Part shown: piece by piece, positions 51,765 to 58,460 of the stretch
Numbering within the stretch: position 1 is the first letter of the stretch
Layout: the number at the start of each line of letters is the position of its first letter
Origin: Fischerella sp. CENA71
GTDB taxonomy: Bacteria > Cyanobacteriota > Cyanobacteriia > Cyanobacteriales > Nostocaceae
DNA length: 64,000 nucleotides
Direction: 5' to 3'
NCBI GenBank assembly: GCA_024239075.1
Contig: JANBVI010000076.1
Span: forward strand, 1-64,000
Program-made: the position numbers and the translations under genes
Notes under the pieces: generated by a model
Databases searched by the model: none
Seen by the model: only the letters and a program-made list of their open reading frames with translations
What the model was told of the DNA's origin: nothing

Positions 51765-53810
51765 GTGGAGAAGGGGACGCTAGTTGAATTTAGACTTCAA
51801 GGCGATCGCCGTTTGGGTGTGGTAGATCGTCCTGACGGTAAAACCCGTTGGTTCGTCATCGATGAACGCGGTCAATCTCACAGTCTCGCGCCTAGACAAA
51901 TCACCTACACAATCAACGGACAAAGCTATAAATCCTCACAAATTCCTAGTTTTTTAGAAGAAGTCAAGCCTTACTTAGATCCATCAAGTTTAGAAGTAGC
52001 TTGGGAAATACTAGTAGAGGATGGGGAAACAGTAACGCCACAAGAAATGGCAAATCTACTGTTTTCAGGATTACAAGCACCTCAGTGTTACGCTGCTCAT
52101 TGCTTGCTGTCAGACGATAAAATCTATTTCAAGCAAAAGGGAGACTCTTACGAACCCCGCACAGCAGCTCAGGTAGCAGAACGCAAACACCAACTAGAAG
52201 TAGAGGCGCTCAAAGCAAAAGGACAACAAGAATTTTTGGCTCGTGTCGAGCAAGCACTCAAAGGTGAAGCAGTCGAGTGGCAAAGACATGACCGCCATCG
52301 CCTAGAAGCTTTAGAAAAATATGCTGCACTGCTTGCCGATATTGTGCGTGTAGGGCTAAATTATGACTCTCTGGCTCGTGCCTATCCGCCGCCAGCACCA
52401 GTCCTGGAAACGATGAACATGCTAGGACGTTCTGCAACACCCCAAGGAGCTTTGCAATTATTGGTAGACTTGGGTTGGTGGAGTCCTCATGAAAATTTAT
52501 TTCTGCGACGTTCCTCAATTCCAGTCCAATTTCCTCTAAAGGTACTAGAAGTGTCGCAACAGCGATTGCAATCACCACCGCCTGATCCAGATTCTAACCG
52601 CTTGGATCTCACCTATCTCAAAGTGTACACAATTGATGATGAAAGTACTACAGAAATAGATGATGGTTTGAGTTGGGAGAAACTTCCAGATGGGCGAGAA
52701 AGATTGTGGGTACATATCGCTGACCCAACACGCTTTTTGATACCGGAAGATGAGTTAGACCTAGAAGCGAGAAAGCGGGGTAGCACAGTTTATTTACCTA
52801 CTGGTATGGTTCCCATGTTTCCAGAAATATTGGCAACTGGGCCCATGAGTTTGGTACAAGGACAGGTTTGTTGTGCTTTGAGCTTTGGAATCATTTTAGA
52901 TACATCGGGGGCAGTAGAAGATTACAACATTCATGCCAGTTTGATTAAACCCACTTATCGCCTCACCTACGAAGATGTAGATGAAGTACTGGACTTAGGC
53001 GTGCAAGCGGAACCAGAAATTGCCGCGATCGCCAAATGGGCTAATCAGCGTAAAGCTTGGAGATATGCCCAAGGAGCCATCAGTATTAACATGCCGGAGG
53101 CGATGATTAAAGTCAAAGAAGACGACATTAATATTTATGTTTTAGACGACTCCCCCTCCAGGCAATTAGTAGCTGAGATGATGATACTTGCTGGTGAGGT
53201 TGCTGCCCGTTATGGTCAAACTCATCAAATTCCTCTGCCTTTTCGTGGTCAACCCCAACCAGAATTACCCCCCGAACAAGAATTACTCCAGCTACCAGCA
53301 GGTTTTGTCCGAGCCTGTGCTATGCGTCGTTGTATGCCCAAAAGTGAAATGAGCATTACACCAGTGCGTCACGCTGGTTTAGGCTTAGATACCTACACTC
53401 AGGCTACCTCTCCTATTCGCCGCTACAGCGACTTACTCACCCATTTTCAACTTAAAGCACATCTGCGCGGAGATATTCTGCCCTTTTCTGCCGAACAGCT
53501 TAAAGAAGTAATGATGACCGTCAGTAACATCACTCAAGAAGTCACAATGGTAGAACGGCAGACTAACAGATATTGGGCATTAGAGTACTTGCGCCGTTGT
53601 ACAGATAGGGTTTGGCAAGCCACAGTATTAATGTGGTTGAGAGAAGATAGCGGTTTAGCACTAATTCTTTTAGAAGATTTGGGTTTGCAGTTGCCAATGT
53701 CCTTTCGGCGTGCTTTAAAGTTGGGAGAACAAGTTGCAGTGAAAGTTTCCCATGCTGATCCCCAAAAAGATGTAATTCAATTTCAGGAAGTAATTTATCA
53801 AGAAGCCTAA
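51765..53810 (+). CDS. RNase II/VacB-family 3'-5' exoribonuclease
   Basis: 681-aa exoribonuclease. The RNB catalytic domain spans about residues 275-600, with DDESTTEIDDGLSWE (catalytic Asp cluster), RLWVHIADPTRFL, GSTVYLPTGMVPMFPEIL, FRGQPQPELPPEQ and ATSPIRRYSDLLTHFQLKA, the family signature. N-terminal VEFRLQGDRRLGVVDRPDGK is a cold-shock/S1-like module. GTG start. The rpmG-rpsR-RNase II order is usual in cyanobacteria, and relatives are annotated Zam (acetazolamide resistance). Role in mRNA and sRNA decay by homology. Confidence 0.92.
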   Translation: MEKGTLVEFRLQGDRRLGVVDRPDGKTRWFVIDERGQSHSLAPRQITYTINGQSYKSSQIPSFLEEVKPYLDPSSLEVAWEILVEDGETVTPQEMANLLFSGLQAPQCYAAHCLLSDDKIYFKQKGDSYEPRTAAQVAERKHQLEVEALKAKGQQEFLARVEQALKGEAVEWQRHDRHRLEALEKYAALLADIVRVGLNYDSLARAYPPPAPVLETMNMLGRSATPQGALQLLVDLGWWSPHENLFLRRSSIPVQFPLKVLEVSQQRLQSPPPDPDSNRLDLTYLKVYTIDDESTTEIDDGLSWEKLPDGRERLWVHIADPTRFLIPEDELDLEARKRGSTVYLPTGMVPMFPEILATGPMSLVQGQVCCALSFGIILDTSGAVEDYNIHASLIKPTYRLTYEDVDEVLDLGVQAEPEIAAIAKWANQRKAWRYAQGAISINMPEAMIKVKEDDINIYVLDDSPSRQLVAEMMILAGEVAARYGQTHQIPLPFRGQPQPELPPEQELLQLPAGFVRACAMRRCMPKSEMSITPVRHAGLGLDTYTQATSPIRRYSDLLTHFQLKAHLRGDILPFSAEQLKEVMMTVSNITQEVTMVERQTNRYWALEYLRRCTDRVWQATVLMWLREDSGLALILLEDLGLQLPMSFRRALKLGEQVAVKVSHADPQKDVIQFQEVIYQEA

Positions 53811-54160: not shown

Positions 54161-54217
54161 AAAAAAATCCCCAAGTAGCCGACAGCTATCAAGGGGAGTT
54201 TGTTATCAGGGTGCATC
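54161..54217 (-). ncRNA. nsiR1: NsiR1-like small RNA, copy 1
   Basis: Predicted RNA of about 57 nt starting GATGCACCCTGATAAC at 54217 and ending in a hairpin (CCCC/GGGG outer and TAGC/GCTA inner pairs) followed by seven T. TATTAA (54228-54223) serves as -10 and TCCGGA lies at 54252-54257, 35 nt from the start. Length, tandem arrangement, position before hetF, orientation and DIF element match the heterocyst-specific RNA NsiR1. Confidence 0.8.
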
Positions 54218-54251
54218 TACCATTAATATGTTCTGAGAAAAACCAGTATGC

Positions 54252-54257
54252 TCCGGA
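54252..54257 (-). promoter_or_regulatory. DIF element (TCCGGA) of NsiR1-like copy 1
   Basis: TCCGGA; identical elements sit at the same distance from copies 2 (54391-54396), 3 (54531-54536), 4 (54670-54675) and 7 (55772-55777). Copy 6 has TCCGGT on the + strand (55270-55275) and copy 5 none. Confidence 0.75.
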
Positions 54258-54263
54258 TAATTT

Positions 54264-54299
54264 TGTGCAAGAATTTGGCTACATGTTTGTTTTTGCACA
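54264..54299. repeat. Conserved inverted repeat upstream of NsiR1-like promoters
   Basis: TGTGCAA (54264-54270) / TTGCACA (54293-54299), repeated at 54403-54438 and 54543-54578, so between copies 1-2, 2-3 and 3-4. It lies about 7 bp beyond each TCCGGA on the promoter-distal side and just past the next copy's T-tract. It could be an operator or part of a second hairpin; function unknown. Confidence 0.6.
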
Positions 54300-54300
54300 T

Positions 54301-54356
54301 AAAAAATCCCCTAGCAACCGACAGTTAACTAGGGGAGCGAGTTATCAGGGTGCATC
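54301..54356 (-). ncRNA. nsiR1: NsiR1-like small RNA, copy 2
   Basis: Start GATGCACCC at 54356, TCCGGA at 54391-54396. The terminator stem differs from copy 1: CCCCTAG pairs with CTAGGGG and AAC with GTT, so several bases changed in both arms while pairing was kept. That is covariation supporting an RNA-level role. Confidence 0.8.
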
Positions 54357-54439
54357 TACCACTAATATGTTCTGAGAAAAACCAGTATGCTCCGGATGAT
54401 TTTGTGCAAAAATTTGGCTACATGTTTGTTTTTGCACAT

Positions 54440-54496
54440 AAAAAAATCCCCAAGTAGCCAACAGCTATCAAGGGGAGTTTGTTATCAGGGTGCATC
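54440..54496 (-). ncRNA. nsiR1: NsiR1-like small RNA, copy 3
   Basis: Nearly identical to copy 1 (one base change in the hairpin loop region). Start GATGCACCC at 54496; TCCGGA 54531-54536. Spacing from copy 2 is 140 bp. Confidence 0.8.
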
Positions 54497-54579
54497 TACC
54501 ACTAATATGTTCTGAGAAAAACCAGTATGCTCCGGATGATTTTGTGCAAAAATTTGGCTACATGTTTGTTTTTGCACAT

Positions 54580-54635
54580 AAAAAATCCCCAAGTAGCCGA
54601 CAGCTATCAAGGGGAGTTTGTTATCAGGGTGCATC
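54580..54635 (-). ncRNA. nsiR1: NsiR1-like small RNA, copy 4
   Basis: Hairpin identical to copy 1. Start GATGCACCC at 54635; TCCGGA 54670-54675. The -10 region differs (ACATAGTAGT instead of ACATATTAGT), so promoter strength may differ. Confidence 0.78.
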
Positions 54636-54717
54636 TACCAACTACTATGTTCTGAGAAAACCTGTATGTTCCGGATAATTTTGCGAAAATGGGATGAAAT
54701 AGTTATGAAAAACAACA

Positions 54718-54772
54718 TAAAATCCCTCAGTAGCCGATTTCCAACAAGGGGAGTGAGTTATCAGATTTAATC
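54718..54772 (-). ncRNA. Decayed NsiR1-like copy 5
   Basis: The hairpin part (CCCTCAGTAGCC...GGGG) and GAGTTATCAGATT remain, but the GATGCACC start is replaced by AGATTAAATC, and no TCCGGA is present. Upstream it grades into a 33-bp tandem repeat. Probably not transcribed from its own promoter. Confidence 0.5.
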
Positions 54773-54932
54773 TACCAGTTTTTATTTAGTCATCTACCAG
54801 TCATCTACCAGTTTTATTTAGTCATCTACCAGTCATCTACCAGTTTTTATTTAGTCATCTACCAGTCATCTACCAGTTTTTATTTAGTCATCTACCAGTC
54901 ATCTACCAGTTTTTATTTAGTCATCTACCAAT
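54766..54932. repeat. Tandem 33-bp repeat carrying CATCTACCAGT
   Basis: Four to five head-to-tail copies of a 33-bp unit made of TCTACCAG, TTTTTATTTAG, TCA, TCTACCAG and TCA; one unit lacks a T (32 bp). The core CATCTACCA is the same word as the start-site region of the NsiR1-like units (TGCATCTACCA), so this looks like local expansion from a broken unit. Confidence 0.85.
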
Positions 54933-55168
54933 CTTTTGCTTGAGAGCAAAACCGTTAGTATAAATTTGGATGCAAACGCTAGGAGTATCAAAATATGGGA
55001 CTAAGCGGATAGTAGGGTATGGAAAACAGAGAATGGGAAATTGGACATAACGATTGTGAATTTCTCATTTGGAATTAAGTTGGCTTTTTTACTTTTCTGG
55101 TTTCATATCCAAGATCCGAAAAAATCTCGATTTTTGGCAAGATATGAATTAGAACCATACTTACACCT

Positions 55169-55189
55169 CCTGTTTTTTCCGAAAACAGG
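55169..55189. repeat. Hairpin CCTGTTTT / AAAACAGG
   Basis: Eight-bp perfect stem (55169-55176 with 55182-55189) and 5-nt loop, just before decayed NsiR1-like copy 6. Function unknown. Confidence 0.5.
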
Positions 55190-55198
55190 CTGGTAAAA

Positions 55199-55256
55199 AT
55201 AAAAACCCCTAGTGTTTGATAGTCAACTAGGGAAACAGAGTTACCAAGGTATATTT
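55199..55256 (-). ncRNA. Diverged NsiR1-like copy 6
   Basis: Terminator stem CCCTAG/CTAGGG with a T-tract is intact (compensatory to copy 1), but the 5' part reads TATACCTTGGTAACTC instead of GATGCACCCTGATAAC, and the DIF element has one change. Transcription is doubtful. Confidence 0.45.
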
Positions 55257-55682
55257 ACTAATCAGGAATTCCGGTTGTCTATATTGTCATCAGGATAATT
55301 TTTCTCGCTTTTCACGGTAAGTGGAAAAATTTTTCGCCATTCCATTAAATGTACCAAACATGCTATAACGTCTGGTACAAACTAATTTGTGGGCGAATGA
55401 GGGATCAGATCAAGTCCGCTTAGATATTGATCATTAAGACTGACGCTCAGACACAGTGATGTAGTGATGCGGTGAGTTTTTTTTGATGAATAAATTAGGC
55501 GGACAAGATACCTTACCCAGCATAAGCCAACAGTATTTGAGGAAAGTAGGTTGCAAAAGCACGGTTAAAGAAAAGATTATTTTGAATATCTTTTTCCTTA
55601 CCAGATGCCAGTTTCTAGCCTTTCCGTGAAAAGCAAAGGTAAAATTTTGGTGCATGGGGGACGTTTTTCTGGTAAAGATAGA

Positions 55683-55736
55683 AAAACTCCCCAGCGTGTA
55701 TTAGCCAAACAGGGGAGTTAAAGATCAAGGTGCATC
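55683..55736 (-). ncRNA. NsiR1-like small RNA, hetF-proximal copy 7
   Basis: Start GATGCACCTTGATC at 55736, TCCGGA at 55772-55777 (36 nt away), and a strong stem CTCCCC/GGGGAG followed by T. The loop sequence is quite different from copies 1-4. It begins 196 bp upstream of the hetF start codon, transcribed the opposite way, so it would be antisense to a long hetF leader. Confidence 0.65.
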
Positions 55737-55931
55737 TACCAATAAAAATGTTCTAGGCACAGCCGACAAAATCCGGATTAAAGTTGTAGAAGTTGCAAAA
55801 GCAGCAAAACAACTGCAATCAGAAACATCTCAGTTGCAAGATGCATCTAAATGTATCAGAAACAGCGAAACATCAACTTGAAAATGAATCGCGTGTAAAA
55901 CCGGATCAGTAGGAGGCAAACAGGAGTAATT

Positions 55932-58460
55932 GTGACCCAGGAATTTCAAATTTCCGTAACCCCTGTAGGACAAAACGACTACTTGGTGCGGACGGAAAGA
56001 GTCGCGCAGGGAGTGCCGTTGGCAGAAGAACTGGTGACTTGGCCTGTAGCTGATTGGTTGACAGCTGCTGGACATTTGATGAATGATCCATTGAAATTAG
56101 TGTTACAGGGAGATGCGATCGCCAGAAACTCTGTGAACTTAGCAGCATTGGGTCGGGATTTTTATGAGAAATTGTTTAAAGGCACCCTCAGAGATAGTTG
56201 GATGGCCGCCCAAGGTATCGCCCAAAATCGCCAGGGTGTGTTGCGCTTACGTTTAGGGTTAAAAGATAATCGGTTAGCACGTTTGCCTTGGGAAGTGATG
56301 CACGCAGGCGATCGCCCCATAGCTACAGGGCCGTATATTGCCTTTTCTCGCTTCCAATCTGGAATTAATGCCGCATCTCGTCTACCATCAAATCTGTTGA
56401 CACTGCCAGAAGAAGGTGGGATCAGGGTATTGATGATCATTGCTTCTCCTAATGATCGAACCCGTTTAAATCTCCTGAAGCAAGAAGCCGAAGAACTACA
56501 AGCAGAACTACATCGTCAATCACCACGCTTCTCGGAAACTGGGGCTTATCTGCCAGGAATTGAATTGACTTTGTTAGAACAACCAGGTAGAGAAGAATTA
56601 ACACAAGTCCTTGAACAAAGACGGTATCACATCCTGCACTACTCCGGGCATAGTAACTTAGGCCCTAATGGCGGCGAAATTTATCTTGTCAGTAGTCGAA
56701 CCGGGCTTACGGAAACACTCAGTGGAGACGACTTAGCAGGCTTACTCGTCAACAATAATATTCAAATGGCAGTGTTTAATTCCTGCTTAGGAGCATATGC
56801 AGCTACTTCTGATCCCACACAAGAAACTGGTGAACGCAATCTTACTGAAAGCTTAGTGAAGCGCGGTATCAGGAGTGTTCTGGCAATGTCAGAACGTATT
56901 CCTGATGAAGTCGCACTGACATTAACGCAGTTATTTTATCGCAACCTTGCTCAGGGATATCCTGTGGATCTGTGTGTGAGTCGAGTACGTCAAGGCTTAA
57001 TTTCTGCCTATGGATCACATCAGATGTATTGGGCGTTGCCTATTTTGTATCTTGACAAAGATTTTAATGGTTATCTTGGGCCGGAAACTGATGCACCCCA
57101 AACCACAAAATTACTCAACGATTATGATCAGGCTGTAGGGGGAACACCGGCGTTATACCCAGCCACAGCAGATAATACTAGTCTATCTTTGCCGATTGAT
57201 AATATGATACCTTCCGATCTGGCACAAGAATCTTCGGGGCTAGACTGGCTAGGTGAAGAAACCTGGGGTGATTTGGTAGATGAAATTGAATATGATGATC
57301 CAACCTATGCTCAAGATTCTAATTTCGTTGCCGAGATATTTGGTGAACTAGGCAGTCAAACAGATGCTAACGAGCAAACTTCGATGACAGCCAAACTCAT
57401 AGGAGAAGATGAAGAAGAGCATGAAAATAATATAGATGATAATGAAGATATAGATGCTTTATGGGGAGAATTTGAACCACAATTAGCGCCAAACAGACAA
57501 ATTGCAGCGGGAAGGGATGAAGTAACTGTTGATGACAACTTAGGTGTAGATGCAGATTGGCAAAGTACTTTTGTTTCTTCTTACATTACTCCTTCTCAAA
57601 AAGCTGCCTATAGACGACGGGCTAGACGTCAGTTTTTATCCATAATCAGTGTTGTCGGAGTGAGTGTGATCGCAATATTTGTAGGCATAAATTGGTGGCA
57701 GCAAAATCAACGCACCCCTACTCTATCTGATATACCAGGAATTCCCACACAATCTAAATCTACCCCTAGTCTGTCACCGATTAATCTCAAAACAGAAGCA
57801 ACTGGAATTGTCACCGCTTATGCTACTGATAAACTCAGCAAGGGTGACTTGAAAAATGGACTATTAGCTGTAGAAGCACTGCTTGATCGTAATGCTTTAG
57901 AGAATGCGAAAACAGCCCTTGCTCTGATCCCTAAAGATAAGTCAGACAATCATTTTGTCAAGTTTTTGCAAGGGCGGTTAGCATGGCAATTTACCCAAAT
58001 CAAAGACAATAGATATAGTGTCGATGATGCCCGTCGATATTGGGAAAATGCCGTGAAAACGGAACCAAATTCCGTTTTATATTTAAATGCTTTAGGTTTT
58101 GCTTACTACATAGAAGGCAATCTCAATCGTGCTAATGACTCGTGGTTTAAAGCATTGAAAGCAGCTGGTATACAAAATATATCAGTCAATAATGTTGTAG
58201 ATAAACCCAAACAAGAAACTGAGGATGCTTTAACGGCTTACGCAGGTTTAGCTCTTGGATTATACAAATCTGCACCTAATCAACAACCAAATTCTAAACG
58301 AGATCAATTTATTAGCGAAGCAGTAAAACTGCGGCAAATGGTTATCAAAGTTGATCCTATTAGTTTTCAAAAAAATAAATTGGCTAACAATTGGATGTGG
58401 TCTGAAGCAGCAATTCAAGATTGGGAGTCTCTATTAAAAATAAATAGTAAAACTCAATAA
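55932..58460 (+). CDS. hetF: HetF, CHAT-type protease-like heterocyst regulator
   Basis: 842-aa protein required in Nostoc/Anabaena for heterocyst differentiation and normal HetR turnover. Residues about 60-365 form a CHAT (caspase-like) domain with the dyad region HYSGHSN (His240) and VFNSCLGAYA (Cys285). An acidic, low-complexity linker follows (about 400-540), then a basic stretch and one membrane helix (about 568-589), then TPR-like repeats to the C-terminus. GTG start with AGGAG 7 bp upstream gives MTQEFQISVTPVG, as in other HetF proteins. The upstream NsiR1-like array confirms identity by context. Confidence 0.9.
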   Translation: MTQEFQISVTPVGQNDYLVRTERVAQGVPLAEELVTWPVADWLTAAGHLMNDPLKLVLQGDAIARNSVNLAALGRDFYEKLFKGTLRDSWMAAQGIAQNRQGVLRLRLGLKDNRLARLPWEVMHAGDRPIATGPYIAFSRFQSGINAASRLPSNLLTLPEEGGIRVLMIIASPNDRTRLNLLKQEAEELQAELHRQSPRFSETGAYLPGIELTLLEQPGREELTQVLEQRRYHILHYSGHSNLGPNGGEIYLVSSRTGLTETLSGDDLAGLLVNNNIQMAVFNSCLGAYAATSDPTQETGERNLTESLVKRGIRSVLAMSERIPDEVALTLTQLFYRNLAQGYPVDLCVSRVRQGLISAYGSHQMYWALPILYLDKDFNGYLGPETDAPQTTKLLNDYDQAVGGTPALYPATADNTSLSLPIDNMIPSDLAQESSGLDWLGEETWGDLVDEIEYDDPTYAQDSNFVAEIFGELGSQTDANEQTSMTAKLIGEDEEEHENNIDDNEDIDALWGEFEPQLAPNRQIAAGRDEVTVDDNLGVDADWQSTFVSSYITPSQKAAYRRRARRQFLSIISVVGVSVIAIFVGINWWQQNQRTPTLSDIPGIPTQSKSTPSLSPINLKTEATGIVTAYATDKLSKGDLKNGLLAVEALLDRNALENAKTALALIPKDKSDNHFVKFLQGRLAWQFTQIKDNRYSVDDARRYWENAVKTEPNSVLYLNALGFAYYIEGNLNRANDSWFKALKAAGIQNISVNNVVDKPKQETEDALTAYAGLALGLYKSAPNQQPNSKRDQFISEAVKLRQMVIKVDPISFQKNKLANNWMWSEAAIQDWESLLKINSKTQ

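Follow-up and report, generated by a model that had tools for sequence, protein, structure and literature searches.

A stretch of 64,000 nucleotides (nt) from Fischerella sp. CENA71 (contig JANBVI010000076.1, positions 1 to 64,000; 'the window' refers to this whole stretch) carries a tandem array of units resembling the small RNA (sRNA) NsiR1, upstream of the cell-division and differentiation gene hetF. Comparison with the Rfam model and of the repeats with one another places seven NsiR1-type units within 54161-55777, all on the minus strand and thus opposite in direction to hetF, as an earlier note on this DNA had proposed with the right coordinates. The gene itself is confirmed as hetF by the NCBIfam equivalog model CellDiv_HetF (1388.9 bits against a cut-off of 1200); its product is 92-93% identical to HetF of four named relatives (L009, L010, L011 and L014), and the organism groups with Fischerella, Pelatocladus and Westiellopsis. 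The array is an NsiR1 locus, ordinary of its kind. The earlier note had viewed it as a feature of heterocysts, whereas the genome-wide evidence described below suggests an older and wider RNA family.

Four units are near-identical, with start-to-start spacings of 139, 140 and 139 nt (tandem repeat period 139, score 900), and array copies are 74-94% identical over 201 nt. Failure to match an NsiR1 covariance model had been set beforehand as an outcome that would overturn the identification, which survived the test: five of the seven units exceed the gathering cut-off of Rfam RF02399 (39 bits; matches listed at E<=1), scoring 48.7-63 bits. These five contain the exact sequence TGGTAGATGCACC, which is missing from the two weak units (54712-54777 and 55198-55260), and have their first 13 nt, as well as most of the next five, in common. 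In unit 54712-54777 the 5' block has decayed to TGGTAGATTAAATCTGATA, the terminator is weak and TCCGGA is absent at -35. A 3' hairpin is nevertheless predicted for every unit, the weakest being those of 54712-54777 (-9.8 kcal/mol) and 55198-55260 (-10.3 kcal/mol). The DIF1 motif TCCGGA lies 35 nt upstream of four units and 36 nt upstream of the unit ending at 55741. In the 5-kb neighbourhood, Rfam returned only two chance-level matches beyond six to NsiR1. The earlier description of four near-identical units with a period of 139-140 base pairs (bp) plus three diverged copies, each about 57 nt long with a terminator hairpin, is borne out by the spacing, scores and folds; its count of TCCGGA motifs was exactly right (five of seven, at 35-36 nt), and a 33-nt minisatellite at 54770-54930 had been overlooked. 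Between the hetF-proximal copy and the next, about 420 bp (55262-55676) hold no recognisable unit, with similar gaps in relatives L011 and L014.

Table 1. Array units, promoter motifs and flanking features in the window.
Feature	Position	Strand	Evidence or remark
RNase II/R-family exoribonuclease gene (flank upstream of array, outside the system)	51765..53810	+	Pfam RNB
NsiR1 unit, hetF-distal array end	54161..54222	-	RF02399 50.6 bits, E 4.1e-08; exact 13-nt 5' block
DIF1 TCCGGA of unit 54161-54222	54252..54257	-	
NsiR1 unit, top family-model score	54300..54361	-	63 bits, E 3.5e-11
DIF1 TCCGGA of unit 54300-54361	54391..54396	-	
NsiR1 unit	54440..54501	-	50.3 bits, E 4.7e-08
DIF1 TCCGGA of unit 54440-54501	54531..54536	-	
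NsiR1 unit	54578..54640	-	48.7 bits, E 1.2e-07
DIF1 TCCGGA of unit 54578-54640	54670..54675	-	
Degenerate NsiR1 unit	54712..54777	-	repeat family D2, 74% to reference copy; no RF02399 match at E<=1
33-nt minisatellite, 4.9 copies	54770..54930	.	Tandem Repeats Finder score 315
Diverged NsiR1 unit, sub-cut-off	55198..55260	-	RF02399 31.0 bits, E 0.0029; no TCCGGA at -35
hetF-proximal NsiR1 unit (nsiR1.1 position)	55680..55741	-	50.5 bits, E 4.4e-08; position kept in relatives
DIF1 TCCGGA of unit 55680-55741	55772..55777	-	
hetF (CHAT-domain cell-division/differentiation protein), GTG start	55932..58460	+	NCBIfam NF045509 CellDiv_HetF, Pfam CHAT

Across the family to which the organism belongs, the Rfam model matches NsiR1 in 218/218 genomes, and the pattern TCCGGA-N25-33-TGGTAGATGCACC is likewise found in 218/218 (reversed control, 0). 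At least one unit is recognised by pattern in 79 of 80 named hetF loci, L084 having none; in 62 of these 79 loci the distance from the proximal unit to the hetF start is 170-195 nt, in 14 it is 280-380 nt, and three fall elsewhere. Where 3 kb or more of upstream sequence is available (53 named loci), copy number ranges from 0 to 13 with a median of 6; in 27 of the 80 the contig ends within 3 kb upstream of hetF, which would fit assembly breaks at repeats. The earlier remark that copy number and divergence are unlike those of Nostoc PCC 7120 holds insofar as seven units differ from 12, but such a difference falls within ordinary variation. Relative L014 has a run of N inside its array, and two genomes (G002, contig C83, and G003, contig C1) each harbor two separate sets of units, 36 kb and about 2.95 Mb apart, respectively.

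Conservation at the named hetF loci is concentrated in the 5' block. Of the distinct TCCGGA sites that have a T run downstream (272; register taken as the best of three spacings), 262 are followed by the 13-nt block with at most one mismatch. Over the 267 sites retained, conservation is 0.93-1.00 throughout positions 1-18 but for position 14, where it is 0.81. The spacer between DIF1 and the block is always 28-30 nt, where 20-40 nt had been allowed (333 distinct hetF-locus sites and 48 from outside the family).

The block is not confined to hetF. Its exact 13 nt occur eight times in the organism's own genome: five times at hetF, once on contig C20 and twice on contig C4. All three non-hetF copies have a TCCGGA upstream (CCCGGA in one C4 copy) and a hairpin with a T-rich end downstream. 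The C20 copy, which sits between lgt and cobM (identified by family models), scores 51.5 bits with the Rfam NsiR1 model, over the cut-off, and combines the block, a DIF1 promoter, a terminator and a conserved neighbour. A cobM form defined by TCCGGA, AGTAGA and the block is present in 165/218 family genomes, exactly once in each (no match with the reversed control), and some of the 53 genomes lacking it show visible variants (e.g. G005-G008). cobM adjoins this copy in 31/31 distinct loci, and 24 distinct sequences agree at each of the first 20 nt, of which the first 13 are fixed by the way copies were selected. The two C4 copies (244806 and 244964) form a tandem NsiR1-type pair flanked by genes for PAP_fibrillin and ExoD; elsewhere in G001 (L155), next to different genes, lies a unit whose body is almost the same.

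A more distant sibling has a promoter of another type. On contig C63 of the same genome, three tandem sRNA-like units starting at about 84374, 84610 and 84821 carry a related block, TAGATGCACCCTGATGAT, and a GGGGTNTTGCCCC-like promoter element in place of DIF1; their neighbours, gatB and argJ, are named from a reading of the translations only. Because the argJ-type copy scores 31.2 bits with the Rfam NsiR1 model, under the cut-off, and DIF1 is absent (the 60 nt preceding the argJ-type copies inspected hold no TCCGGA), these copies were filed as a sibling rather than as NsiR1. They are present in 107/127 sampled genomes, with argJ adjoining 18 of the 20 copies fetched, and the promoter typically contains an inverted repeat like GGGGTNTTGCCCC that starts about 39 nt upstream. 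The motif GGGN5CCC, a stated requirement for HetR binding (PMC4192349, PMC7377430), is found in 17 of 27 distinct argJ-type upstream sequences, compared with 0.5% after shuffling, and in 0/380 distinct DIF1 promoters of the family; three argJ-type upstreams match the HetR site of hetP at 15/17 bases. These motifs suggest that two types of promoter, both belonging to a single cascade, drive the one RNA block.

The association with HetR extends well beyond the family. In a class-wide sample of 388 cyanobacterial genomes, in which HetR was recognised by Pfam PF03574 and the block search used 15 nt, HetR was matched in 196 genomes and the pattern combining DIF1 and the block in 181, so that the pattern is present in 176/196 genomes with HetR and in 5/192 without (HetR only, 20; neither, 187). 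Outside the window's family, the corresponding counts are 152 with both, 20 with HetR only, five with the pattern only and 187 with neither. The block GGTAGATGCACCCTG alone occurs in 198 genomes (reversed pattern, 0), comprising 191/196 with HetR and 7/192 without; it is found in 6/85 HetR-free genomes of at least 3.5 Mb (tallied by eye). Among 43 family labels, as read from listings, 21 have both block and HetR, one has HetR only, two the block only and 19 neither. Of the 20 HetR genomes that lack the strict DIF1 form, 12 were matched by a looser pattern, and in 11 of these the match continues CACCCTG, most of these altered copies having a hairpin and a T run; in 20 HetR-free controls the looser pattern gave two matches in G254, neither continuing CACCCTG, and its reversed version gave one (G274).

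Context was retrieved for 48 copies outside the family (40 stretches from 25 genomes, taken from the first listed places and not at random). In 98% of them the predicted 3' fold reaches at least -8 kcal/mol in stability, and positions 14-18, which were not used in selection, are conserved at 0.88-1.00, compared with 0.31-0.81 for later positions. Of the 40 loci, 15 have cobM and eight have hetF as a neighbour, always divergent, and six genomes (G268, G338, G355, G369, G381 and G464) have a copy at both. Two genomes lacking a HetR match deserve separate mention: G238, of 2.9 Mb, has an NsiR1-type unit with a hairpin on contig C53 (position 12524, L217), with no TCCGGA within 60 nt upstream, and G223 (family label f21), 99% complete, has DIF1-type NsiR1 copies, a possible case of HetR loss.

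How the array acts on hetF is best approached from PCC 7120. There, NsiR1.1 is reported to be antisense to the hetF 5' untranslated region and to inhibit hetF translation, with partial regulation of hetF by NsiR1.4 (PMC9045159), in agreement with the earlier note's account of NsiR1 as a heterocyst-specific, HetR-dependent antisense repressor of hetF. The hetF transcription start is given as -256, inside nsiR1.2, and therefore nsiR1.1 alone is wholly within the hetF leader (PMC8406250). Transferred to the window purely by analogy, this distance reaches about 55676, marginally past the 3' end of unit 55680-55741, whose 5' end lies 191 nt before the hetF start codon; the leader would therefore span that unit only, and the hetF-proximal unit is likely the only one antisense within it. 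The other good units could also pair with the hetF leader, because their opening 13 nt are the same and the following five largely so.

Searches for further targets in trans returned 18 further places in the organism's own genome (L097-L114) that differ from the 13-nt block by one mismatch, against one for the reversed control, an excess that is unexplained. As candidate targets these were set aside: 13 lie at least 217 nt from the start of the longest covering open reading frame, one lies at 90 nt and four are covered by no open reading frame of 60 amino acids, and none stood out.

Taken together, these observations make it likely, in our view, that the array is both an NsiR1 locus and one branch of a dispersed family of HetR-circuit sRNAs older than heterocysts. 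Each NsiR1 unit would specify a separate sRNA of about 57-60 nt, starting at its DIF1 promoter and ending at its own terminator, with the hetF-proximal RNA acting as a cis-antisense of the hetF leader and the other good ones pairing with it in trans, as reported in part for PCC 7120 and suggested here by the shared block. The sibling sRNAs would have in common a near-invariant 5' block, (G)GTAGATGCACCCTG, joined to freely varying terminator stems, and would be encoded by the hetF array, a single cobM copy, a pair near exoD and one or a few argJ copies. All appear to be under promoters of the HetR cascade, either DIF1, which is reported to be HetZ-dependent, or a GGGN5CCC HetR-type site at argJ. 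Because genomes across Cyanobacteria tend to carry the block where they carry HetR, the origin of the family most likely coincides with that of the HetR circuit, and NsiR1 probably predates heterocysts as a conserved RNA output of that circuit. In the simplest history, an ancestor that carried HetR and preceded heterocysts would have had a single copy at each of hetF and cobM, with heterocyst formers later amplifying the hetF copy into an array and so raising its dose in differentiating cells. The sequences, their positions, the promoter motifs, the terminator folds, the distribution and the co-occurrence with HetR are direct observations; we infer from them that the RNAs are transcribed in this organism, when they are made, that they pair through the 5' block and repress hetF and cobM, and the order in which the loci evolved.

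Several observations weigh against this interpretation. Seven genomes have the block with no match to HetR (two of them 62-70% complete, five 94-99%), and five HetR genomes are without the block; a second HetR model gave no match in the five DIF1-positive, HetR-negative genomes, with controls likewise unmatched. Co-occurrence with HetR partly reflects shared ancestry, the counts not being corrected for phylogeny, and the outside-family genomes are ones that we take to be non-heterocystous from their GTDB taxonomy. Neither hetF nor cobM lies beside 17 of the 40 outside-family loci, and the exact GGGN5CCC is missing from 10 of the 27 argJ-type upstreams. No trans target is supported: when the only HetP-family gene found was tried, its duplex energies with the sRNA were no better than with shuffled sRNA heads (176, 275 and 78 of 300 shuffles as good or better for three copies). 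Finally, replacing or removing the -10 box of nsiR1.1 in PCC 7120 hardly altered hetF-gfp fusions, which speaks against a strong cis effect, although the fusions are described as transcription fusions (PMC8406250).

A narrower account would hold that only the known locus matters: a heterocyst-specific cis-antisense RNA, multiplied by unequal crossing-over, whose other copies are strays spread by descent. The plain tandem homogenisation of the array (74-94% identity between 201-nt copies) and the spread of copy number from 0 to 13 in 53 loci are what this account would lead one to expect, and the published NsiR1 functions consulted are all heterocyst-related; strays, however, would hardly include a lone, syntenic cobM copy whose first 20 nt do not vary among 24 distinct sequences (13 of them fixed by selection), or an argJ copy with a conserved promoter element of its own, nor would the block be expected to follow HetR beyond the family and over 43 family labels, and we regard this account as unlikely. 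The conservation of the first 16-18 nt could instead reflect a DNA element, such as a downstream promoter element or a regulator site by the start, rather than an RNA pairing region, given that the block begins at the presumed +1 at a nearly fixed distance from DIF1 (spacers of 28-30 nt). Nearly the same block nonetheless follows a different type of promoter at argJ, whose GGGN5CCC is found in none of the 380 DIF1 promoters; moreover, 58 aligned DIF+ promoters are reported to be conserved only at -35 and around -10 and the start (PMC6133370), and footprinting is reported to show NsiR1.4 protecting the predicted part of the alr3234 leader (PMC9045159). A purely DNA-level role for the block accordingly strikes us as improbable.

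The minisatellite raises a separate question of the same kind. It is composed of reiterated 5' ends of the degenerate unit 54712-54777, with nine exact copies of CATCTACCA within 54700-54960, and extra CATCTACC sites occur at the corresponding place in four relatives of the Fischerella group (three in L009, 11 in L010, three in L011 and two in L014). Such a tract might be imagined to act as a many-headed NsiR1, leftward transcription yielding about ten reiterated 5' ends, or as a sponge, rightward transcription yielding about ten perfect 9-nt NsiR1 sites, and both the nine exact copies and the recurrence in relatives would suit this idea. Variable copy number and a regular 11/33-nt period are nevertheless what slippage would be expected to produce, the tract has no TCCGGA at -35, and some 750 bp separate it from the likely start of hetF transcription; we consider such a function very improbable, and the minisatellite is most likely a product of slippage.

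Returning to the dispersed family of HetR-circuit sRNAs, we favour on balance, with modest confidence, the fuller proposal that NsiR1 is no heterocyst invention and that it belongs to an ancient sRNA family serving the HetR/HetZ circuit as its RNA arm throughout filamentous cyanobacteria, with ancestral loci divergent to hetF and cobM and an argJ branch fired directly by HetR. The role of HetR and PatX in species without heterocysts has been called a mystery (PMC11298460). A conserved sRNA that nearly all sampled HetR genomes encode behind a DIF1 or HetR-type promoter would offer a ready readout of circuit activity, its place and time of expression along the filament showing where the circuit acts. 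If the proposal is correct, these RNAs would mark and reprogram HetR-on cells in heterocyst-less filaments, making an otherwise unknown role of HetR directly observable; cobM (cobalamin synthesis) and argJ (arginine synthesis) would be neighbouring candidate targets, and the hetF array would be explained as an amplified older single copy.

While the array is of a known kind, the cobM and argJ siblings, the HetR-type promoter at argJ and the tight link to HetR were not found described in the open-licence papers searched, and an earlier mention in other NsiR1 papers is possible. Among other sRNAs, LhrC, the Qrr siblings and Yfr1 show the same general design, in which a pairing block is shared by RNAs with differing terminators or, as in Yfr1, an unpaired core is invariant; they differ in their regulators and blocks, and LhrC and Qrr come from other phyla. 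PatX, a small protein with an RG(S/T)GR motif, resembles the family described here in its DIF1 promoter, in accompanying HetR in filaments and in being held to predate heterocysts (PMC7761841, PMC11298460), and differs in being a peptide precursor and no RNA. RNA162 (57 nt) of Limnospira indica PCC 8005 is an NsiR1-resembling sRNA from a HetR-bearing filament without heterocysts, although the portion of that report consulted presents it as a single annotation, without family-wide distribution, loci or promoters (PMC8400943). The closest counterpart is the NsiR1 array of PCC 7120, which likewise lies upstream of hetF on the opposite strand and consists of tandem units of about 60 nt with HetR-dependent DIF1 promoters, some identical and some diverged (PMC9045159, PMC8406250); it is described as having 12 copies, seven of them identical (PMC9045159), whereas the array in the window has five good and two decayed units, a gap of about 420 bp, and a minisatellite built on a decayed unit.

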